The notes beneath the pieces were generated by a model. That model was not told where the DNA came from. It was given only the letters and a program-made list of their open reading frames with translations, and did no database searches. Below, one piece after another: positions 758-24,817 of a DNA stretch of 37,167 nt (positions are counted from its first letter, which is position 1; every line of letters begins with the position of its first letter). The translations under genes were made by a program, and so were the position numbers. The stretch lies in the IMG/VR virus record IMGVR_UViG_3300037847_001567, positions 8,270 to 45,436 of that record. One strand, written 5' to 3'. This DNA is from a virus.

Positions 758-3700
758 TTAAAAATCAGTATCTAAAATTTCTTCAAATCTTTCAGTAGTT
801 TTTACTAACTGTTCATTACTAATTGCAGTAGCGTACAGCTGTGCTTTACGTTGCTCATCATTTTCATAAGCTTGTCTAGCGTAAGCAGCTTCGTCACGTA
901 ACAACTGCCATAGTTGCGTTTGTTCTTGTGAAGTCAAGTTAAATGCAATTTGTGCATTTTGTTGATTAGCTGCATTTTGAGCTGCAGTATTAGCAGTATT
1001 GGCTTGTCTTCTCCATTGTATATTAGACTGCTCAACAGCTTGTGCGTTCGCAGCATTCCATTGGTCACGAGCAAGGTCTTGCTGCTCATTAAATTTAGCG
1101 ATATCTGCTTGCATCTGTGCGCTAATAGTAGCTGCTTGTAAAGTGTTTCCGGCTTTAATAGCTTCTTGACGATTAGCTTCAGCAGCATTAAATTGATTTC
1201 TAGCTGCCATAGCACTTACATTATATTGTTCAATCTGAACTCCTAAGCTAGCCATGTACTGGTCAGCTTGTTGTTGATTAGCTGCACTAAATTGAGCCGC
1301 AGCATTTTCAGCAGCCAAATCACTTAGCATAGCTTGTTGAGCCATTTGAGCATTCAATACAGCAACCTGTTGGTCGTTACTTAAATTAGCCATGTCCATT
1401 TTTAAAAAGTTTTGAGCATTAGTAATAGCTATTTTAGTTGCCATGTCTGCTTGAGCTATGTTTCTATTTGCAAGCATTGTAGCATTTTGAATAGCTACTT
1501 GCTGTTGTGCATCAAACTCTCTAATTGTCATGGTTTGCATGAATGCACTATTAGCTATCTGAACTTGTTGGTCAGCATCAAACTGTTTAAAATCTAAGTT
1601 AGAATTAATTTGAGCATTAAACATTGCAGTTTGTTGAGCGTTTGATAATTCTTGCAAACCCATTTGTTGAGCTAGTTGTGCATTAACTCTACCGGCTTCC
1701 ATTTGTTTCTCATAGCGTTGAAGCTCAGCGGTATTTTCTGCAGTCATTTTAGCGGAATCAAACTGATTAGTGTAAGTTAAGTTTGCTAGTGCTACACGCT
1801 CTTCTGTATTTAATCTAGCTAAATCTGCATTAAGTCTTAATTGCTCATTGCTTGATAAAAGTTGTGATGCAATAGTAAGACGTTGAAGTTCAAAACGATT
1901 AGCTTCTGTAAAGTTAGCAGCGTCTGCCGCAGCCTTTTCAGTTAAGTTAGCAACAGTAATTTGTTGTTCGTTGCTTAAATTTGCAATTTCCATTTGTTGT
2001 GCAAAAGAAGCGTTAGTCTTTTTAAAGTCAATCAAAGCATTTAAGTTAGCTAAGCGGACTTGATTTTCTGCCGTCATGTTAGCTCTGTTAGTTGCATTCT
2101 TTTCAGTCAACTCAGTTAGCTCTAGTTTTAAAGAAGCATCAAAGTTTATTTCTGCTATTCTTGCGTCTAATTCAGCTTGTCGTATGCTTCGAGCTACTTT
2201 ATTATTTAACTCATTTAATCTAAACTGATTATCAGCTGTAAAGTTTGCAGAATCTGTAGCAGCTTTTTCTTGCAGCATAGCTAACTCAATTTGTTGCTCG
2301 TTCGTAAGATTAGCCATATCCATTTGCTGTGCAAACGTAGCGTTTGTTTTACGTAAGTCTACAAGAGTTTGCAAGTTGACTAAACGCTCTTGATTTTCTG
2401 CAGTCATAGTATCTTTAGCAGCATCGTTTTGTTGCGAAAGATTTTGTAACTCTACTGACAAACTAGCACTCAAGTTAGCTTTTTCAATATCTTGATTTAG
2501 TTCAGCTTGGCGAACCATTGTAGTTATTTGAGCATCGTAGTTTTTCAATCTAGCTGCTTGTTCAGCGTTTAGGTTGTTTACGTTTGCGTCATTTAAAGCT
2601 TTTAAGTTTTCGTAGTCTCTTCGTGAGTTTTCACTAAATTCAGCAATAGCTGCTTGTTGAGCCATTTGTGCATCAGCAGATGCTTTAGCTTGAGCATTTT
2701 GAGTATTAATTAATGCTGTTTGTTGTTGTTGCTCAGAAGAAATTACAGCTGCTTGTTGGTCAAATGTAGATTGTTTTACAGCAATCTCTTGAGCCATTCG
2801 TGCAGTTTCAGAAACAGCTAACTGCCTATTAGCTAAGTTTTGTATGCGTAGCTGCATAGAATTGTTAGCGTTTGTAACAGCTGCTTGCTGCTCGTTGCTT
2901 AGATTAGCTAATGCCATGTCTTTTAATGCTGTAGCGTTTGATTGAGCAATCGGTAAAGCACTTTGAATAATAGCATTAAACATTGCATCTCTACCTACAG
3001 TAGATGCAGATAAACCTCTACGTGCCATAATACCATCTAAGGCAGCTATAGTCGGTCTAGCCCAAGTAGGAATTTCACCGTCATCCATACCTGCAAGAAG
3101 AGTTTCCATTTGAACAGATACCAGAGCTTCTTCAGGAAGTGCAGCAACTTTAACAACAACTTCAGTAACAGGGTCTTCATCTAGTTGAGCCATAACTTCA
3201 GCAGGGTCTTGAGCAATAGCTGCTGACATTTCTTCAGGAAGCTCCGCTACAACTTCTATCATTTCAGTAGCGTTAAGAGTTCTGTCTTCAGAAGTTACTG
3301 CTTGCATTTGAGCAGCTTCGTATGTAGGTACACCTCCAATTTCTGCTGCTGTTCCTTGAGGTGCAGTTCCTGTAATAGCTTCACGAGTTTGTAAATCTAC
3401 TGCAGTATCAGCAGATGAAATTTCAGTAGCTGTTCCTTCCGCAGCTTCAGCTGTTTGTGCAGTCCTACTTGCAGCTTTTGTATATGCCGGAGTTTCTTCA
3501 ATATCAACACTTAATGCATCTGCAACGTCATTTGCTTTAGCTACTTCTGCTTGTGAAGCTTGTGCTATTTGAGCAGCCTCTTCTATTTTAGCTGCTTCGC
3601 CTGCTGCTGCTACAGCTTCTTGAGCTACACGCTGCTTAGCCATGTCATATTCTGGAAGGTCGTTAATATCTACACCACGCTCTTCTGCAATATTAACTAG

Positions 3701-6700
3701 TTCTGTTAAATCTTCAGAGCTTAAAGTAGTAGCATTATATGTATCAGCTGTTCCCGGACCTTCAACTTCAGCTATTTTTTGTGCGCCTTTAGATTCTAAA
3801 AATTCAAGACGTTTTGCTTCAGCTTCTACATATTTATAATGTACAGGCAGCGCATTAATTTGAGATTGGAAATATGCTTTATTTTCTGGTGTTGTAGCAC
3901 TATTTCTTTTATTTACTAAGTCTTTATAACCACCGTCATTTTCTCTTATAGCATAAAGGTCATTTACATTTTGTGACAATGTAATATATTCATCAGTATT
4001 TTTAGCTGCGCTCATTGCTGTTGCTGCAATAGCTAGAGAGTTTTCAGAAAGTTCTCCTGTAGCTGCTGTGCCTTTAGCGGTTTCAATATCTTCTGCGGTT
4101 GCAGTTGCTGCTGTAGCTGTTGATGCTCCGATAGTAGTACCAAATGCTTCCCTAGATACAGTTCCAGCATCAGCCGCTGTAGCTGTAACATTTGCATCGC
4201 TAGTAGCTGCAGTATAGCCCGTAGAAGTTACATCTTCATCTGGACCTACAACTTCGTCAGGTAATGCTTGTCCTTTTACAGTAGGCATTGTCGGAGCAGC
4301 TACAGTAACAGCTCCTACATCTGCGGCATCATCTAACGCTTCAATAGAGTCATCTGCAGTAATCGTATCGCCATCTGTAGGCATGTCAATAGGGTCATCT
4401 ACTGTAACATCAGGAGCAACGGGAACAGTTTGAGTTAAACCTGTAGGTGCTCCTGTTTCACTTTCTCCTGTTACAGTAACACTACTTGTTCTTGTTCTAG
4501 TATTATTTCCTGTACTCATATTTCCTCCGATAAACGAATCATAAATAGGTTGTGCTTGTAAATAAAGTGCTTGTGCTTTTTGATAAATGACATATTGAGT
4601 TTGTTCCTTTTGATAATTTACCATTTGGTCATAACTAGGGTTGTCCGGCAACACAGGAGGATAAACTCTTTCTGGAACTCTTGGCGGAAAACTCATGTTT
4701 TGTCCGTTAATTATAGGGTAATAATGCTCATAAATATCTTTCATTTTAGCAACATTATCACGATATTCTTGCATCTTTATATTATATTCTGTTACAGCTT
4801 CTGCGTATGCAAGTCTATGTCCCGGTCTACTGCTTTCTGGACCTTCAGGTTCTATTGGCTCAACTAAAAAACTATAGTCTTCTTCTGGAGTGCTTTTTGG
4901 AGGTACAAATGGAGTATCATCTATTTCAGGTATTTCTATTTCATCTATCGGCTCTTCAGTTTCTGGGTCTGACTGCTCGCCACCACCTTCCATATTTTCT
5001 ATAACTTGTCTTTCATATTCAGCAGAGCTTAAATCATAAATTGCTTTTTTAATTACATACGCATCATAAGCATCTTTTTCGTCTCTCCAGTTTTCTTGTT
5101 GTTCAGCCAAACTTAAAGCTTCTTCCGGAGAACTAAATAAAGGATAAGGTCCGGGGTGCTGCATAAGTCCGGGATTTGTTGGAGGTTCGGTAGCAGTACC
5201 TGCAAATATAGCATCTCTTTCAGCATAATATAGTTTTAAATCATCTATATGTACCTGATACCTTGCATTTCGTTCTTCAATAAGTGAACGAGAAGTATAC
5301 GGATATTGGTCTGGGTCTACTAATTTATCTTCAAAATAACTATAGTCTGGCTCAGAAGTAGGTGTAACTATTGTGTCGGTAGGCTTCGGCTCTTCAGGAA
5401 ATTTAGGACCAATATCTAATTTGTTTCCTTTATTTGTCCATTCTGTCAGTAACGCCATATATTGAGGAGCTGTTAAGTCTCCTCTTATAGGGAAAGGGTC
5501 GCCTAGTTGTATGTCTTTTGCTGCTGCCCAAGCTTTAAGTTCTTCTTCATAAGCTCCTGCAGGAAAATTAGGATTAGTAAAATTACTTTCTACAGGCGGT
5601 AAACTATTTTTAGAATATTGAGCCGTTACATAATCTTCAAGAGTTATAGGCGCTTCAGGCACTATAGGGTCAGGAGCTTCAGTTGGCTCTTCAGTCTCTG
5701 GCTCTTCTTCTGGTCTAGAATCTAACCAAGCTTGAAATACCGCATCTCGTTGACTTTCAGGATAATTATTTAAATTAGGTTCAGGACTAGATGCATTGAA
5801 TGTAGGCATTACAAAAGTTGCTTCTAGCCAATCATTATATATTTTATCAAATCTTTCTGCAGGATAATCTGCTACAGAAGGCTCAGGACTGTTTGCATCA
5901 AATACTGGGTCAGCTGTAGCTTCTAACCAAGCCTCATAAACTTCATCGAATTTGCCTTCAGGATAGTCACTTATTACCGGCTCAGGACTTAACTGATTAA
6001 AAGTTGGAACTACAAACGAAGCTTTAGCTATTGTATAGGCATCATATACTGCTTGCCTAACTGCTTCTGGATAGTCTGTAAGAATCGGCTCATCACTAAA
6101 AGCATCAAATGCAGGCATATCAAATGTAGCGACCTGCCAAGCTTCAAATACTGCATCTCGTCTATCTTCTGGATAGTGATTAAGATTTGGCTCAGGACTA
6201 TCTGCCGTAAACTCAGGTATTGCGTATAAAGCTTCGTATGTTTCTGGATGATTTTCAAGTAAATTTTCGTTATAATTATCTAAGCCTGATTGTGTGCTAT
6301 TTATAATTAAAAACTGTCTTCTTAGTTTAGCTTCTGCTAATGACGGACTATGGAGGTGAGTTTCTCCTCCGTACCCTTCTCTAATACTATTATCTAAATG
6401 TTTAGGTGTAGGAGGCTCGTCATCTGGAAACAACGTAGTATATATAGTATGTTGACCGTTAAGAAGTAACGTATTTTTAAATTCATTGAGACTAGCTGTG
6501 TCATCAAATTGTTCTAAAGCCTCTTTATATTTTCGAGCATCCCCTAAAGTAGCGCTAGTTTTTATAGGATTAGATATACTTAAACCCGGAGTTACTCTTT
6601 CATCTCGTTCTAAGTCATATCGGTCACTCTTAATATCTGATGGCATATTAGGAGTAGTTACTGCTTTTCTATAGTCGTCTACAAGAGGACCAAGTAAAGC

Positions 6701-9700
6701 TTCTGCTCGTTTATATTGAGCTTCAATATCATCCTGAGCATACGGACTATCTTCAGCGATTGTTTCTTTTATAAAGTCTTCGCCTGTCAATTTAAACATG
6801 TAGCGCATAATGGCTAAGCCATCAGTTAAAGCATCAAGTTTCTGATTGTTATCAATATCCAAAATTTTAAATAATTCTGGATTATCCTTTTCACTTAGCT
6901 TTAAAAGATATCCTACACGTTCATCTATTTCTTCAGGACTTTTAGGAGATTTATCACCTATTGTGTCTTTAGTTAGCGCTTCGCCTGTTAAACCAAACAT
7001 TCCTCGAAAAAGCAACAGTCCATCAGTAAGTGCGCTTACTATACCATCTCTATCTATATCTAAAGGACTATAATTTTTATCAGTGTCATCATAAACAGGG
7101 TTTACTGGAACTAAACCTTTTTGTTGTAAAACTATATGTCCTGAAGGATATTTTTCTTTTATTTTTTCTGCAAGCGGTTCAATCGGCTCTCCGCTATTTA
7201 CAAGATAAACAACCCTTTCTTCAATTTGATTATCAGTAACAGGTAATGAAATTTCTTCAAGAGGGAGAAATTTTACGTCTGAGTCTTCACTAAAAATTTC
7301 GAAAACTTTTTTAGGATATAGTTTTGCATATTCTAATAAAAAACTTTCAGCTGTTTCCGGATAAGATTGCTCAGGAAAAGCTTTTAAAAATTCAAGCCGT
7401 CTTCCAGCTTGTCCTGCATTATGACGTTCAAACCTTTCAAAATAATTTTTAGTATCGGCTGTATTAAATTTAGAACCAGATTTAGTGCGATGACCGTCAT
7501 CTTCAATCGCTTTTAAAAAACCTGATATATTAACCTTATACGAATCTTTTAAAAATTCGTTATACATTTCACTGTCATCAGGAAAGTTTTCTAAAAGATA
7601 TTCTCGTCTTTTTCTTACATAATACTCGTCAAGAGAATCAACAGAAGGATTATTTTCAAGATACTCTGAAATAGGTCTAAACTCATAATAAGCTGCATTC
7701 CTGTCTGGATACCATTCTTTCCATAACTCAATATCATAATCATAAATTTCTTTTTTTCTGTGACTATGTGAATGGTATACAAGCCCTGTTATTGATTCTT
7801 CATATTCTTCTTTTTTAGGCTCTATTGAATTAGAATCGACCCAATCTAAATAACTAATTCCACTTTCTTTAACACTTGGTCTATACTTGTAAAAAATATC
7901 AGGAAGATTTTCTTCAGCCCATCCCGGAATATAGTTTTCTAATGCAAGTATAATATCATCTTCTCTGATTTTTGCTCGTTTAAGAAAAAAATCGTTGTCT
8001 TTATAATTATCTTTAACTGTTCCATCAGGATTATGAAAATGTTCTGAACTGATTTCAATTTCTAAAAGTTCATCGAATATTTTGTTTACATCTTCTACAG
8101 TTGGCTCTTCAAAACCTAATATTTTTAAATTATTAATATAATCTTCAATAAAAAAAGTAGCGTGATTTGTGTCACTTACATAATCGTGAGTAGTAGTGTC
8201 GTATACTAAAAAACCTGTGTTGCCAGACTGTGTTGTATAATCACGTTTAAATTGATTAGCATTAAATTTAAGATTACTAAATATTTCAGGTTCATTTATT
8301 TCTAAATAATCTTTATATTCATTTATTTTATTTAGTTGTTCACTAGTTAAACTATTTATATCTTCAGCATCGTCACTTAAAAATTCAAGTCTTTTACGAG
8401 CTTCTGCTAAGTTAGGGTGAACAGGTCTAAAACTTCCGTCAAATGGTTGACCTGAAATATAACTAACATAAGGGTCTCTAATTCTACGCTGAAGCCTTTC
8501 ATCATTTTCATTAGCTAATTTTTCTTCTTGTCTACGAAGATAAGTATTGAACCCACTAATTTCTTCTTCGCTTAATCCTTCAACAGATATTTGAAGAGTG
8601 TCTTCTATTTTTTTACGTTCGGCTTCTGCAGCGTCTAATGCAGCTTGTTCTTTTCCATACCAATCTAATAAAGTTCCGTTATAACTAATAGCGTGTTGTA
8701 TATTAGTTTGATGGTCTTCTAAACCTAACTCAAACATTTCAGGAACAGAATTTTGCCAAGAATTATAAGCTTTACTATATAAAGCAAGAGAAGAATAAAG
8801 CTCTTGTACAGGCTTGGGCATGCTCATTGTAAAGCCGCCCTTTAAAGGAATAAAATCATAAAAAGGACTTTTAGTATAGTCACCATCACTAAAGTCCATG
8901 CTTAAATGCAAAGCTACGGCTGATACAGTTGCATCATCTGATTTTCTATATTCCTGTTTAGAATTATCATAGCCAAGAGTCTCTATATAATCAAGAGCTG
9001 CTCTTATTTTTTGTGCTTCTTTAATCTTGTCTTCTTCAGATAAATCCACATACGGATTAAGGTCAGGCTCTTTAACTTCTAAAGGTATATCTTTAAAATC
9101 TCTTACAACAGATGAATTGCTTATAAATTCTTGTCTTTGATTGAAATTAGGAGTGCTATATGCACCTGAATAAGGATAAAAGTTTTCGCTAGTTAAAGAG
9201 TTATTAGCTTTATCCTCAAGAATCCACGCTCTTCTAGCTTCAGAAGTGCTATATTCATCTTTATATTCCCTTGCTTCAAGAGGGTCATTAGGATTTTTAT
9301 AAAATATAGGGTCGGTTACAACCTTAGCATAATTTATAGTAGCCCTATTATAATCTGAAAAAGAAGCATAAAACTGTCTTTCAGGTCTAGGAGAATCAAC
9401 TGAAAAAACTAAATTTCCAAAAAACGGACTTTTAGTATAATCGCCATCACTAAAATCTAAAACTTTATGTAAAGCAATAGCCTTTAAATTCCAAAGATTT
9501 TTTCTTTCTTGGTCAACTGAAAATTGTAATTGAGAGTGTATGTTTTTAGAAAGCTCTACTTGATGCGCTAATTCATTTTCTGAAAAACCTACAAAAGGAT
9601 TATTTTGTTCTTCTAAACTATCTCTAGTTACTTCAAAAATATTTAAATAATTATAAATGCTTTGATTAGTAGCTACGATTGATGCTAACTCTGCATCTAG

Positions 9701-10873
9701 CTCATCTATCTGGTTGTCACCATTTAAATCATATCTATTTAATTTTTCGTTCGCAGTTAAATTTAATTGTAAGGGTCTAGCTAATATAATATCATTTACT
9801 TGCTGTGCAGCTTCTTCAGGAGATGTATTTAAACGCTTAATAGCTTGAGCATGAGTTTCATAATTATTTAAATATTCAATACTTGTAGTTATTTTAGGTT
9901 TTGTAGCGTCACTTACCATACCGGTTATATCGCCACTAGTAAGTTCTCCACTTCCATTATAATCGTATCTGTGTAAAAACTCGTTTAAAGTTAAACCTGT
10001 AACATCTAACTGCTTTTCTAGGCTTAAAACAGCTAACTGCGATACTTCTGTCATATAAACAAGAGCATCTTCTCTAGATAAAGCTCCTCCTGCTGCATCC
10101 CTTTCTCTAATCATAAAATCTGCAAATCTTTCACCATTTGCATAATCATCAGGAGTAAAATTAGAAATCCAGATTTCACCATTAATAAGCAATTCTGGAA
10201 AAGCTTCTTTATATAATTCAGGGTTATTGTTTTTTAAATTTTCTTGAAACTCAAATACTGATGGATGATAACGATTGCCGTTTTCATTAACTAAAAATTC
10301 TTTTCGTTTTCTAATAAGAGGAACAGTAACTTCTTTTATTGCGTAAGTGTTTTGAACATATTGTTCAGGAGTTAGTTTTCCATCATAAGCTAATTCAGCT
10401 TGATTTTGCTCCCAAGCTGCTAAACGTGGGTCATAATTTAACTCTGCAAGTTCTTCTTCTCTTCTTGCATTTTCTATCATTCTCCTAGTTTCATAATCTA
10501 GATTGACAGGAAGACCGTCATCACCATACTCAACTTTTGGTGTTATTACAGTATCTTCATCATATTCTAAATCTGGTCTAAATGCAGAACCTAGACCACC
10601 GTGACCAGTAGACTGCATTCTTGTTGAGCGCTGTTGAGCAGCCAAAAAACTTTCGTCACTTTCTTGTATTACTGGTTCTTCTGGTTTTTGTACAGGTGCA
10701 GGCGCAACTGTCTCCTCAGTAGGAACTAAAAGATTATCCTGCTGTATAGGCTCAACAGGAGTCTGTAAAAGACTTTCTTCTTGTTCGGGTACTTCTGGAG
10801 GAACTGGCACAACAGGGGATAAAAGACCGCCTGTGTTATATTTTTTTCTAGGAGACTTTTCAGTCTTTTTCAT
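758..10873 (-). CDS. Giant repeat-containing virion protein (3371 aa), probable internal/ejection protein
   Basis: One uninterrupted 10.1-kb frame, close to a third of the window, with a GGAAG ribosome site about 10 bases before the ATG. Visible regions by approximate residue: Pro/Glu-rich N-terminus (1-80); EF-hand/dockerin-like Asp loops near 300-315 (YDYNGSGELTSGD) and 380-394 (YDLNGDNQIDELD); a duplicated segment containing DFSDGDYTKSPF near 470 and 660; a second pair of Asp loops near 1270 and 1340, each followed by ALTDGL and a hydrophobic helix; five ~34-aa tandem repeats (1553-1720); an acidic Pro-rich linker; an Ala/Thr-rich zone near 2150-2300; and from about 2600 a Gln/Asn/Ala-rich helical region iterating ANLSNEQQ-like words to the C-terminus. 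I see no lysozyme, protease or glycosidase motif. The C-terminal repeat style is one I recall from marine phage structural proteins. Its place between holin and another late gene supports a virion or ejection role (inference). It could instead be an adhesin-like surface protein. Confidence 0.85.
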   Translation of the reverse strand: MKKTEKSPRKKYNTGGLLSPVVPVPPEVPEQEESLLQTPVEPIQQDNLLVPTEETVAPAPVQKPEEPVIQESDESFLAAQQRSTRMQSTGHGGLGSAFRPDLEYDEDTVITPKVEYGDDGLPVNLDYETRRMIENARREEELAELNYDPRLAAWEQNQAELAYDGKLTPEQYVQNTYAIKEVTVPLIRKRKEFLVNENGNRYHPSVFEFQENLKNNNPELYKEAFPELLINGEIWISNFTPDDYANGERFADFMIRERDAAGGALSREDALVYMTEVSQLAVLSLEKQLDVTGLTLNEFLHRYDYNGSGELTSGDITGMVSDATKPKITTSIEYLNNYETHAQAIKRLNTSPEEAAQQVNDIILARPLQLNLTANEKLNRYDLNGDNQIDELDAELASIVATNQSIYNYLNIFEVTRDSLEEQNNPFVGFSENELAHQVELSKNIHSQLQFSVDQERKNLWNLKAIALHKVLDFSDGDYTKSPFFGNLVFSVDSPRPERQFYASFSDYNRATINYAKVVTDPIFYKNPNDPLEAREYKDEYSTSEARRAWILEDKANNSLTSENFYPYSGAYSTPNFNQRQEFISNSSVVRDFKDIPLEVKEPDLNPYVDLSEEDKIKEAQKIRAALDYIETLGYDNSKQEYRKSDDATVSAVALHLSMDFSDGDYTKSPFYDFIPLKGGFTMSMPKPVQELYSSLALYSKAYNSWQNSVPEMFELGLEDHQTNIQHAISYNGTLLDWYGKEQAALDAAEAERKKIEDTLQISVEGLSEEEISGFNTYLRRQEEKLANENDERLQRRIRDPYVSYISGQPFDGSFRPVHPNLAEARKRLEFLSDDAEDINSLTSEQLNKINEYKDYLEINEPEIFSNLKFNANQFKRDYTTQSGNTGFLVYDTTTHDYVSDTNHATFFIEDYINNLKILGFEEPTVEDVNKIFDELLEIEISSEHFHNPDGTVKDNYKDNDFFLKRAKIREDDIILALENYIPGWAEENLPDIFYKYRPSVKESGISYLDWVDSNSIEPKKEEYEESITGLVYHSHSHRKKEIYDYDIELWKEWYPDRNAAYYEFRPISEYLENNPSVDSLDEYYVRKRREYLLENFPDDSEMYNEFLKDSYKVNISGFLKAIEDDGHRTKSGSKFNTADTKNYFERFERHNAGQAGRRLEFLKAFPEQSYPETAESFLLEYAKLYPKKVFEIFSEDSDVKFLPLEEISLPVTDNQIEERVVYLVNSGEPIEPLAEKIKEKYPSGHIVLQQKGLVPVNPVYDDTDKNYSPLDIDRDGIVSALTDGLLLFRGMFGLTGEALTKDTIGDKSPKSPEEIDERVGYLLKLSEKDNPELFKILDIDNNQKLDALTDGLAIMRYMFKLTGEDFIKETIAEDSPYAQDDIEAQYKRAEALLGPLVDDYRKAVTTPNMPSDIKSDRYDLERDERVTPGLSISNPIKTSATLGDARKYKEALEQFDDTASLNEFKNTLLLNGQHTIYTTLFPDDEPPTPKHLDNSIREGYGGETHLHSPSLAEAKLRRQFLIINSTQSGLDNYNENLLENHPETYEALYAIPEFTADSPEPNLNHYPEDRRDAVFEAWQVATFDMPAFDAFSDEPILTDYPEAVRQAVYDAYTIAKASFVVPTFNQLSPEPVISDYPEGKFDEVYEAWLEATADPVFDANSPEPSVADYPAERFDKIYNDWLEATFVMPTFNASSPEPNLNNYPESQRDAVFQAWLDSRPEEEPETEEPTEAPDPIVPEAPITLEDYVTAQYSKNSLPPVESNFTNPNFPAGAYEEELKAWAAAKDIQLGDPFPIRGDLTAPQYMALLTEWTNKGNKLDIGPKFPEEPKPTDTIVTPTSEPDYSYFEDKLVDPDQYPYTSRSLIEERNARYQVHIDDLKLYYAERDAIFAGTATEPPTNPGLMQHPGPYPLFSSPEEALSLAEQQENWRDEKDAYDAYVIKKAIYDLSSAEYERQVIENMEGGGEQSDPETEEPIDEIEIPEIDDTPFVPPKSTPEEDYSFLVEPIEPEGPESSRPGHRLAYAEAVTEYNIKMQEYRDNVAKMKDIYEHYYPIINGQNMSFPPRVPERVYPPVLPDNPSYDQMVNYQKEQTQYVIYQKAQALYLQAQPIYDSFIGGNMSTGNNTRTRTSSVTVTGESETGAPTGLTQTVPVAPDVTVDDPIDMPTDGDTITADDSIEALDDAADVGAVTVAAPTMPTVKGQALPDEVVGPDEDVTSTGYTAATSDANVTATAADAGTVSREAFGTTIGASTATAATATAEDIETAKGTAATGELSENSLAIAATAMSAAKNTDEYITLSQNVNDLYAIRENDGGYKDLVNKRNSATTPENKAYFQSQINALPVHYKYVEAEAKRLEFLESKGAQKIAEVEGPGTADTYNATTLSSEDLTELVNIAEERGVDINDLPEYDMAKQRVAQEAVAAAGEAAKIEEAAQIAQASQAEVAKANDVADALSVDIEETPAYTKAASRTAQTAEAAEGTATEISSADTAVDLQTREAITGTAPQGTAAEIGGVPTYEAAQMQAVTSEDRTLNATEMIEVVAELPEEMSAAIAQDPAEVMAQLDEDPVTEVVVKVAALPEEALVSVQMETLLAGMDDGEIPTWARPTIAALDGIMARRGLSASTVGRDAMFNAIIQSALPIAQSNATALKDMALANLSNEQQAAVTNANNSMQLRIQNLANRQLAVSETARMAQEIAVKQSTFDQQAAVISSEQQQQTALINTQNAQAKASADAQMAQQAAIAEFSENSRRDYENLKALNDANVNNLNAEQAARLKNYDAQITTMVRQAELNQDIEKANLSASLSVELQNLSQQNDAAKDTMTAENQERLVNLQTLVDLRKTNATFAQQMDMANLTNEQQIELAMLQEKAATDSANFTADNQFRLNELNNKVARSIRQAELDARIAEINFDASLKLELTELTEKNATNRANMTAENQVRLANLNALIDFKKTNASFAQQMEIANLSNEQQITVANLTEKAAADAANFTEANRFELQRLTIASQLLSSNEQLRLNADLARLNTEERVALANLTYTNQFDSAKMTAENTAELQRYEKQMEAGRVNAQLAQQMGLQELSNAQQTAMFNAQINSNLDFKQFDADQQVQIANSAFMQTMTIREFDAQQQVAIQNATMLANRNIAQADMATKIAITNAQNFLKMDMANLSNDQQVAVLNAQMAQQAMLSDLAAENAAAQFSAANQQQADQYMASLGVQIEQYNVSAMAARNQFNAAEANRQEAIKAGNTLQAATISAQMQADIAKFNEQQDLARDQWNAANAQAVEQSNIQWRRQANTANTAAQNAANQQNAQIAFNLTSQEQTQLWQLLRDEAAYARQAYENDEQRKAQLYATAISNEQLVKTTERFEEILDTDF
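930..2960 (-). repeat. Degenerate NLSNEQQ/NMTAENQ helical repeats, C-terminal ~680 aa of the giant protein
   Basis: The translated region repeats short words such as ANLSNEQQ, ANMTAENQ, NFTADNQ, LANLN and QMAQQ at roughly 11- and 22-residue spacing, with Ala, Asn and Gln dominant and almost no Pro or Gly. This predicts long amphipathic helices or a coiled coil. The corresponding DNA has recurring gttag/cttg words but no long exact repeats. Confidence 0.75.
5714..6217 (-). repeat. Five tandem ~34-aa repeats inside the giant virion protein
   Basis: Five consecutive in-frame units of about 33-36 residues, each with the pattern P-x-F-(D/N/T)...S-x-E-P-x-(L/V/I)-x-x-Y-P-E/A...(D/E/A)-x-(V/I)-(Y/F)-(D/E/N/Q)-(A/D)-(W/Y). 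Examples of the central word are SPEPNLNHYPE, SDEPILTDYPE, SPEPVISDYPE, SPEPSVADYPA and SPEPNLNNYPE. The alternation of an acidic/Pro loop and an aromatic helix suggests a solenoid or bead-like stalk. The DNA copies have diverged, so this is an old protein-level duplication. Confidence 0.9.
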
Positions 10874-23063: not shown

Positions 23064-23092
23064 AGTATACCCGTAATATTAGGGTTTGTCAA
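23064..23092 (-). promoter_or_regulatory. Sigma70 promoter for the minus (virion) operon
   Basis: On the minus strand: -35 TTGACA (23087-23092), 17-base spacer, -10 TATACT (23064-23069), with TTACGGG directly before the -10. An A/T-rich tract at about 23094-23116 lies upstream of the -35 and could act as an UP element. No comparable promoter was found elsewhere in the minus arm. Confidence 0.85.
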
Positions 23093-23139: not shown

Positions 23140-23168
23140 TTGACAAAATGGAAATTTACGGGTATAAT
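23140..23168 (+). promoter_or_regulatory. Sigma70 promoter for the plus (early) operon
   Basis: -35 TTGACA (23140-23145), 17-base spacer, perfect -10 TATAAT (23163-23168), with TTACGGG directly before the -10, as in the opposing promoter. The two -35 elements are back to back, 47 bases apart. Transcription would start near 23175, giving a leader of about 580 bases before the first gene. Confidence 0.9.
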
Positions 23169-23347
23169 AAATATTAAGCCCACCGGGGTTATATATAGAT
23201 GTTGGAGCATGGGTTATCGTATTTGTCTGTGTACCCGCTTTTTAGCTCTTGCCTTTAAAGCCCTATGAAGCTGCGGACCTGTCTGGTTTACATCCACCAC
23301 CCCTTCAAAATGTATAAGATTGTATATATATCCATAGTACCCCCCAT
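23169..23347 (+). other. First part of the early leader, no gene recognised
   Basis: This stretch has a few very short open frames (19-34 codons) but none with a well-spaced ribosome site. Two dyads are weak (CCC-acc-GGG; CCAT/ATGG). It is more GC- and C-rich than the hairpin array after it. I see no tRNA or terminator. Confidence 0.6.
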
Positions 23348-23741
23348 GGCAGCTTGCCCACCCCTTTGAAGTCTACCAAGACTTCAAAAATTTCGAAGAT
23401 TCTAAAGAATCTATCGGGCGCACACCTTTGAAAATCTCTAAAGATTTTAGAGACTGCCTAGTTTACAAAACTAGAGCAAAGATTTTCGAGTCTTTAAAGC
23501 TACGCTTTATTTCCCAATCTCCAAAAATTTCAAAGACTTACAAGCATTTCTAAGCTTCGCTTAACTTCCCTCCTGAGACTTTCAAAGTCTCCTATAATTC
23601 TATCGCCTGCACGGAAATCTTCTTCAAAGATTTTACAGAAATTTTAGACCTTTAAAGACTTTAAAATGTCTTTAAAGGTCTATTGAGTTCTACAAATTAG
23701 AAAATTTATTTAGTAAGTTCTAACGAACTAAATAAATTTTC
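23348..23741 (+). repeat. Array of short perfect stem-loops in the early leader
   Basis: Perfect inverted repeats in order, given as arms, loop length and position: GGCA/TGCC, 3, 23348-23358; TTTGAAGTC/GACTTCAAA, 6, 23365-23388; AGATTC/GAATCT, 4, 23397-23412; AAAATCT/AGATTTT, 4, 23431-23448 (alternative CTCTAAA/TTTAGAG, 3, 23436-23452); CTAGTTT/AAACTAG, 3, 23458-23474; AAAGA/TCTTT, 8, 23478-23495; TAAAGC/GCTTTA, 3, 23495-23509; TAAGC/GCTTA, 3, 23551-23563; GAGACTT/AAGTCTC, 3, 23575-23591; AAATCTT/AAGATTT, 5, 23615-23633; a 15-bp arm TAGACCTTTAAAGAC with 8-base loop, 23645-23682; a 15-bp arm GAAAATTTATTTAGT with 12-base loop, 23700-23741. Arms differ from unit to unit, so this is not a copied repeat. 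None is followed by a T-run. It is a strongly structured leader RNA or a DNA feature such as an origin. Confidence 0.85.
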
Positions 23742-23757
23742 AATTTGGAGAACTAAT

Positions 23758-24150
23758 ATGGCTACAGCAACTTTCAACTCAATCGACCCAAATCAAATTG
23801 CAACACAACGTCAAGTCTACGGAGTAGCTTGTCATTTCGCTAACATAGCTAGTAAATCTCCTACGGAGAGATACGGCTTAACCAAAGTGTTCAATGCTAT
23901 ATTGAACAAGCACTACAAAGATAGCGATAGCTATATGACTCATGGCGAAGCCACTGAGTGGTTTGAGTGGGATTGTGTTCCACCACAATTCATGTCACTC
24001 GTCAAGAAGCCAAAGGCTTCGAAGGTCAAGAAGACTGCTAAGAAATCTACCCCGAAGGGGAAGGCGACCGACAGAGTTGACACTCTTGAAAAGAGAGTCG
24101 ATGCAATGGATACCAAGCTAGAGAAAATCCTAGAGATTTTATCTAAGTAA
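23758..24150 (+). CDS. Early protein of unknown function (130 aa)
   Basis: Start ATG 7 bases after GGAG, 16 bases past a long hairpin. The N-terminal half (NSIDPNQIATQRQVYGVACHFANIA, then GLTKVFNAILNKHY) looks like a small folded domain; I recall similar 'ATxxQ-V' starts in short marine phage proteins. Residues ~85-105 are Lys-rich (VKKPKASKVKKTAKKSTPKGK). The C-terminal ~25 residues are a short coiled coil (VDTLEKRVDAMDTKLEKILEIL), suggesting an oligomeric, nucleic-acid-binding protein (inference). The coding sequence itself contains eight perfect small stem-loops. Confidence 0.8.
   Translation: MATATFNSIDPNQIATQRQVYGVACHFANIASKSPTERYGLTKVFNAILNKHYKDSDSYMTHGEATEWFEWDCVPPQFMSLVKKPKASKVKKTAKKSTPKGKATDRVDTLEKRVDAMDTKLEKILEILSK
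23857..24140 (+). repeat. Stem-loop array continuing inside the 130-aa gene
   Basis: Perfect dyads: TCTCC/GGAGA (23857-23869, loop 3), GTTCAAT/ATTGAAC (23889-23907, loop 5), ATAGC/GCTAT (23921-23934, loop 4), TGGC/GCCA (23943-23953, loop 3), GAAGCC/GGCTTC (24006-24020, loop 3), CCCC/GGGG (24050-24060, loop 3), CTCTT/AAGAG (24083-24095, loop 3), AAAATC/GATTTT (24124-24140, loop 5). Loops of gaa recur three times. Confidence 0.75.
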
Positions 24151-24154
24151 GTGT

Positions 24155-24184
24155 TTGACTTGCGACAAGGAAGTCGTGTATAAT
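24155..24184 (+). promoter_or_regulatory. Sigma70 promoter for the small-gene cluster
   Basis: -35 TTGACT (24155-24160), 18-base spacer, -10 TATAAT (24179-24184), placed 4 bases after the stop of the 130-aa gene and 33 bases before the next start. It lacks the TTACGGG element of the central promoters. Confidence 0.8.
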
Positions 24185-24742: not shown

Positions 24743-24801
24743 TAAGGATTAAATAATTAATAAGAAGTTCAGAATGAACTTATTAATTATTTAATTCCTT
24801 A
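24743..24801 (+). repeat. Long bulged hairpin upstream of the 204-aa gene
   Basis: An apical 7-bp stem (AAGTTCA with TGAACTT, loop GAA), then a 3-base bulge on the 5' side (24762-24764), a 14-bp A/T stem, one unpaired T (24796), and a 5-bp base stem: 26 pairs in all. Its right arm ends exactly 16 bases before the start codon at 24818. Not followed by a T-run. Confidence 0.85.
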
Positions 24802-24817
24802 CAAATGGAGAATGACG

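Follow-up and report, generated by a model that had tools for sequence, protein, structure and literature searches.

Small hairpins with defined roles have been described in several phage and bacterial systems. The phage lambda N leader and the RNase III sites of the T7 early mRNA involve a single functional hairpin or a few of them instead of a string of about 20, and they resemble the locus described here in having a sigma-70 early leader with a long hairpin at the first gene's ribosome-binding site. Sponge RNAs such as CsrB and RsmZ carry many small hairpins on each transcript. The early promoters of phage N4 are DNA hairpins with a 7-bp stem and a 3-base loop, in which non-conserved bases are free to change as long as the hairpin forms; N4 has single hairpins at three promoters, with conserved bases and GC-rich loops (PMC4496689). 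Template switching is known from hairpins of RNA genes such as those for rRNA and microRNA, where its footprints are fully inverted loops and multiple paired changes (Monttinen and Loytynoja, PMC8794818).

We analysed a stretch of viral DNA of 37,167 nucleotides, here called the window (bases 8270-45436 of the 49178-base contig IMGVR_UViG_3300037847_001567), in which an array of small hairpins covers an early leader and the first gene. The array shares with N4 its small early-region hairpins, short stems, 3-base loops and partly free stem bases, but it comprises about 20 units without a shared motif and is served by ordinary sigma-70 promoters. N4-type hairpin promoters were rejected because both loops and arms vary and no conserved bases are common to the hairpins. 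Like CsrB and RsmZ, the array places many small hairpins on one transcript; however, it has no common binding motif and overlaps a gene, and the absence of GGA from the hairpin loops of the window led us to reject a CsrA sponge. Its stems are perfect, several bases change together in pairs and loops can be fully inverted, as in the template-switching cases (PMC8794818), but its hairpins are mostly unrelated to each other and lie in the leader and coding sequence of a single phage transcription unit.

The sequence-only reading that drew attention to this locus had set aside terminators and copied repeats such as CRISPR, and we agree. On the + strand the units are not followed by T-runs and no terminator was matched, which excludes intrinsic terminators; the units are not copies of one sequence, as those of a CRISPR or REP/BIME-type array would be, and only the arms AAGACTT/AAGTCTT recur. 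That reading also knew of no described element with this layout. Consistent with this, a search of Rfam 15 gave no match above the gathering score (the sub-threshold matches were chance matches, mostly to microRNA families on the long hairpin), and our literature search found no paper on such an array in phages. The pattern of the array appears categorically new, and its function may prove to be of a known kind.

The phage and its early region

The terminase, capsid and class II ribonucleotide reductase show that the phage is related to the HMO-2011-type marine phages, the group to which its terminase, capsid and replication genes are nearest and whose divergent layout it shares. The nearest isolates are the Pelagibacter phages HTVC115P, HTVC103P and HTVC104P, with TerL 69% and capsid 58% identical to those of HTVC115P. 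The early/late arrangement is that of HMO-2011: in the window the late genes point left from about 22915 and the early genes point right from 23758, and the gap between them contains two divergent sigma-70 promoters. Each of the 29 non-redundant relatives has a TTGACA/TATAAT-type promoter 5' of gene 1, mostly between -566 and -853, and the array of the relatives sits downstream of this conserved early promoter. The main features are:

23064-23092, - strand: late promoter, sigma-70-type, divergent; TTGACA-17-TATACT, 11 of 12 consensus positions
23140-23168, + strand: early promoter, sigma-70-type; TTGACA-17-TATAAT, predicted start near 23175
23281-23363, + strand: conserved element directly before the array, from alignment; GGTTTACAT ... 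TGTATAAGATTGTATATATATCC ... TACCCCCCATGGCAGCTTGCCCACCCC
23758-24150, + strand: gene 1, a 130-aa protein with a hairpin-dense coding sequence; helical N-terminal part, K/P/A-rich linker, C-terminal helix

A layout like that of the 23281-23363 element is visible by eye in HMO-2011, CRP-1, HTVC103P and HTVC115P. The motif CTAGTTTACA (or GGTTTACA/GTTAACA) occurs at 23286 and 23458 of the window and was also noted in loci L140 and L205. Its copies lie about 170-190 nt apart and flank the TATA/C-rich element, an arrangement also present in HTVC103P, which has no array. This paired motif may be the reason that one hairpin (CTAGTTT-ACA-AAACTAG, 23458) stays invariant.

A near-consensus promoter lies right behind gene 1 (24155-24184, + strand) in the window and its closest relatives; as a boundary of the unit it was rejected, being found in just 5 of 29 loci. 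On the late side, positions 758-10873 (- strand) encode a 3371-aa protein without a significant match in PHROGs, Pfam or the PDB, and its gene's positional counterpart at that end of the late operon is far shorter, with 3387 bp in HMO-2011 and 5016 bp in HTVC103P. We also rejected this protein as a sign of an N4-type system, as it lacked catalytic motif strings as well as matches, divergence beyond detection being possible. A search of the phage's own genome for a T7-type RNA polymerase gave no match, and the family control was silent as well.

Hairpin content of the leader and gene 1

About 20 perfect inverted repeats had been noticed over some 800 bases, and counting bore this out: 19 non-overlapping perfect dyads (arm of at least 5, loop 3-8) lie between 23348 and 24200. 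The array itself extends from about 23365 to 24140, within the transcription unit with a predicted start at about 23175. The leader (23348-23757, 410 nt) holds 8 dyads with an arm of at least 6 and a loop of 3-8 (1.26 expected), 6 of them with an arm of at least 7 (0.41 expected); a ninth, at 23700-23741 (arm 15, loop 12), brings the total to the nine first reported. The gene 1 coding sequence (393 nt) contains 4 dyads with an arm of at least 6 (0.47 expected) and 7 with an arm of at least 5 (1.79 expected). Each of these four counts was matched by none of 500 dinucleotide shuffles. When protein and codon usage were preserved, the expectations for gene 1 rose to 1.10 and 2.33, and the observed counts were reached in 5 and 1 of 1000 shuffles, respectively, which upholds the enrichment claimed for the 130-aa coding region. 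Outside the array, no 400-nt stretch of the window held more than 3 dyads. The hairpin array is thus confirmed as real, and its individual hairpins, all on the + strand and from the dyad count unless other evidence is given, are:

23365-23388: arm 10, loop 4; dyad count and homologues in relatives
23397-23412: AGATTC-TAAA-GAATCT; loop TAAA, TTTA or TATA in relatives
23435-23453: arm 8, loop 3
23458-23474: invariant hairpin CTAGTTT-ACA-AAACTAG; dyad count and relatives
23495-23509: TAAAGC-TAC-GCTTTA (helix 4); one pair covaries GC/CG/TA with no G.U intermediate
23551-23563: TAAGC-TTC-GCTTA (helix 5); TTAGTC/GACTAA in relatives
23575-23591: GAGACTT-TCA-AAGTCTC (helix 6); dyad count and covariation model
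23615-23633: AAATCTT-CTTCA-AAGATTT
23645-23682: long hairpin, arm 15, loop 8 (helix 7); 13 of 13 modelled pairs covary in relatives
23686-23754: long near-perfect hairpin (helix 8) ending just 5' of the ATG; 3' arm holds the ribosome-binding GGAG
23857-23869: coding hairpin TCTCC-TAC-GGAGA
23888-23908: coding hairpin, arm 8, loop 5
23921-23934: coding hairpin, arm 5, loop 4
23972-23989: coding hairpin, arm 6, loop 6
24006-24020: coding hairpin GAAGCC-AAA-GGCTTC; encodes linker residues K-P-K-A-S
24083-24095: coding hairpin, arm 5, loop 3
24124-24140: coding hairpin at the end of gene 1, arm 6, loop 5

Almost every loop has 3-4 nt and most arms have 6-7 bp, and the stems are strictly Watson-Crick. 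The claim that arms are unrelated from unit to unit held for most of the array and failed for AAGACTT/AAGTCTT: AAGACTT is present in 3 copies in the leader (0.15 expected), and AAGACTT-TNA-AAGTCTT is a repeated unit in the relatives.

Leader hairpins with one internal mismatch had G.T in 8 cases vs. A.C in 12, compared with 154 hairpins with perfect arms of at least 7, and G.U pairs were rarer than in shuffles (5.8% vs. 9.6%). There is no preference for wobble, and wobble pairs therefore do not decide between RNA and DNA; the missing wobble tolerance is the main point against selection at the RNA level and speaks for a mutational attractor or for action at the DNA level. That the minus strand folds equally well or better also counts against the RNA reading. 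The loops of unique leader hairpins contain little G (32, against 65 C; p=0.001), a strand asymmetry that fits the expectation for a single-stranded molecule.

Conservation and covariation in relatives

A protein search with gene 1 yielded 63 IMG/VR relatives, and an alignment search reached further members. The array is kept in about 60 IMG/VR relatives and is limited to about -600 to +500 around the gene 1 start. The 29 non-redundant loci average 1.2-2.4 dyads per 100 nt between -500 and 0, and 0.4-1.0 between +100 and +500, against about 0.1 elsewhere; the first 100 nt of gene 1 are at background. Full-length leaders mostly have 5-10 dyads where about 1 is expected, with fewer in the most distant members, and folding z-scores range from about -8 to -19 for main-group members and from -3 to -12 for more distant ones.

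Between leaders of 60-70% identity, 75% of hairpins are matched by a hairpin at the same spot, compared to 36% if the arms changed independently. In gene 1, at the same identity, individual hairpins come and go (16% kept, 12% expected), yet 28 gene-1 sequences together contain 78 hairpins against 12.9 +/- 3.3 in the codon-preserving test (maximum 24), six times the expectation. Therefore, position is held in the leader and density alone in gene 1. Downstream control genes gave 53 hairpins vs. 30 expected in the same test.

Covariation was assessed for 65 modelled leader pairs (helices 1-8) in 20 sequences, which is the better count, since MAFFT alignments shift the register of some hairpins and make other pair counts noisy. 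In this set 94.3% of cells were paired (83.4% when shuffled), 134 cells had changed on both sides (43.8 in shuffles) and the covariation score was 0.339 (0.148 shuffled). Sliding the partners by one column reduced pairing to 50-60%. The linkers between leader hairpins are conserved as well. Positional retention and covariation thus support a constrained structural element in the leader. The idea that arms would show compensatory changes in related phages holds for the leader, whose dyads are kept by compensation, but not for the coding region, where individual dyads are lost and replaced.

Cultured phages with and without arrays

Similar arrays are present in three isolates, with 20 hairpins in the early region of HMO-2011 (1.6 expected), 16 in CRP-1 (2.1) and 10 in CRP-345 (1.7). 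Their first genes are also enriched: 9 hairpins vs. 1.33 in CRP-1, 5 vs. 0.8 in CRP-345 and 8 vs. 0.73 in gp74 of HMO-2011. The geometry of these arrays equals that of the window and their sequence is unrelated to it. In HMO-2011 the excess over shuffles comprised 21 arms of 6 (1.6) and 7 arms of 7 (0.5), with none of 8 or more. HTVC103P, HTVC115P, CRP-207 and CRP-738 were examined and have no array. The array is therefore tied to part of this phage group rather than to a single protein family.

Gene 1

The gene 1 protein has no Pfam match and a weak match to phrog_17155. A structure search with its AlphaFold model (mean pLDDT 72) returned no match, and the fold therefore gave no functional clue. 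No host or prophage relative was found in a search of genome contigs, and no homology was detected to the first genes of CRP-1 and HMO-2011. The linker is written in palindromic codons (24006-24020 in the window; also L012, L026 and L034), as in GAAGCC-AAA-GGCTTC and GAAGTC-TAC-GACTTC, so that a paired base change alters two residues together. Compared with L005 and L008, gene 1 of L010 looks recombinant, since it joins the start of one lineage to the C-terminal end of another.

Evidence for template switching

One footprint of template switching is that stems are perfect. A second is that the two sides of a stem change together: in helices 4-7, the best-aligned ones, 88 cells had changed on both sides and 3 on one side only (G.U); helices 1, 2, 3 and 8 were less clean, with one-sided changes that came partly from outer pairs and register shifts. 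A third footprint is the inversion of loops. Identical arms enclosing reverse-complement loops were found in 11 pairs (at least 2 differences), compared to 2.7 expected and a maximum of 9 in 2000 permutations. The flips are mostly at homologous places (AATA/TATT at -395, CAAA/TTTG near -415, TAAA/TTTA at -360, AAA/TTT at -148 and -122), and HMO-2011 itself contains the loop-flipped copies AGTCCG-ACAG-CGGACT and AGTCCG-CTGT-CGGACT. Perfect stems, inverted loops above chance and, in the best-aligned helices, paired changes nearly free of wobble intermediates support the view that template switching during DNA replication creates the hairpins and maintains them.

Possible functions of the array

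The sequence-only reading had offered three origins: a structured regulatory RNA, a replication origin or recombination site, or template switching. Template switching and a constrained leader structure have gained support, and action as RNA or as DNA is not settled. We see an even chance that this is an undescribed class of element, a hairpin string, in which a phage transcription unit, with both its leader and its coding sequence, is selected for the density and geometry of its hairpins and not for their sequence, and template switching supplies the hairpins. Our preferred reading, to which we give slightly less than even weight, is that a selected string on the earliest transcript is kept perfect by template switching and acts as RNA. 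The region would then form the first early transcription unit in a marine phage related to HMO-2011, with small perfect hairpins strung along its long leader and gene 1, and hairpin sequences would be largely free to vary, CTAGTTT-ACA-AAACTAG and the AAGACTT/AAGTCTT arms excepted. DNA-level template switching in phage replication would make the stems, re-perfect them and flip the loops, and selection would preserve the string. With 6-7 bp stems and 3-4-nt loops the hairpins would be below RNase III size, and we infer protection of the mRNA, since so packed a molecule would leave few unstructured stretches for RNase E or Rho. The long hairpin with the ribosome-binding site (23686-23754) would gate translation of gene 1 and is possibly an RNase III site.

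Action in the early transcript is suggested because the string starts 170-190 nt past the predicted start and lies on the early side only, because it covers leader and gene 1 with strand-biased loops, and because the main-group leader ends with the ribosome-binding-site hairpin. However, translating ribosomes would melt the gene-1 hairpins, and some array-free related phages share the same gene layout, which also counts against this explanation, as do the loss of the long hairpin in more distant members and the one-sided changes in helices 1, 2, 3 and 8. If the hairpin string is true, it would be the clearest natural example of an element evolving by palindrome repair. It provides dozens of aligned natural hairpins that change by paired steps and loop flips, so that the origin of compensatory changes could be tested in the culturable HMO-2011, CRP-1 and CRP-345. 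In gene 1, palindromes shape the disordered linker of a coding sequence, and the array points to an early function in an abundant marine phage group.

It is also possible, if rather doubtful, that the array is a DNA-level element, such as a replication origin or protein-loading sites at the early promoter, in which the formation of extruded or single-stranded DNA hairpins matters and their sequence does not. Such hairpins could be extruded by supercoiling as at N4 promoters or form on the strand displaced by transcription. Stems that are strictly Watson-Crick and tolerate G.T no more than A.C fit this, and loops and stems are near the size of the N4 early-promoter DNA hairpins (PMC4496689); the hairpins also run on into the coding sequence irrespective of translation. 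The array lies at the GC-skew minimum between the divergent modules and adjoins the conserved AT-rich/C-rich element, but GC skew shifts with coding direction regardless, and the array is confined to the early side and tracks the early transcript. In addition, neither the 3371-aa protein nor the genome yields a recognisable polymerase of T7 or N4 type.

A mutational attractor, in which frequent template switching (for example in a long single-stranded stretch) makes and repairs palindromes and the array has no function, seems unlikely to us. The leader hairpins keep their position over deep divergence, the linkers between them are conserved too, and the remaining genome is at background dyad density; arms in the isolates end at about 7 bp, which an unselected palindrome maker does not predict. 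It would, however, account for the perfection of the stems, for loops that flip and arms that change in pairs with no intermediate, for the turnover of gene-1 hairpins at steadily high density, and for linker codons that track palindromes, such as K-P-K-A-S.

That the hairpins are repeated binding sites for a single RNA-binding protein of the host or the phage, a CsrB-like sponge or platform whose protein is perhaps the gene-1 product itself, is highly improbable: a recurrent AAGACTT-TNA-AAGTCTT unit, an invariant CTAGTTT-ACA-AAACTAG unit and a lysine-rich gene 1 linker would suit it, but most units lack a common sequence or loop motif, no loop of the window has GGA, and the HMO-2011 and CRP arrays are unrelated in sequence. 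A product of chance or composition in an AT-rich region (0.38 GC around the array) is refuted by the dinucleotide- and codon-preserving shuffles and by conservation in about 60 relatives, and its probability is negligible.

Other hairpins in the early region

The long ribosome-binding-site hairpin before the ATG is absent from more distant members. In L035, upstream of 2934, an extra small hairpin (GTGTC-GAA-GACAC) is inserted near the apex of this hairpin and may have arisen recently. The gene at 24812 of the window is also preceded by a long perfect hairpin (24748-24795, arm 17), whose apex, AAGTTCA-GAA-TGAACTT, recurs as the apex of the ribosome-binding-site hairpins at gene 1 of many relatives.
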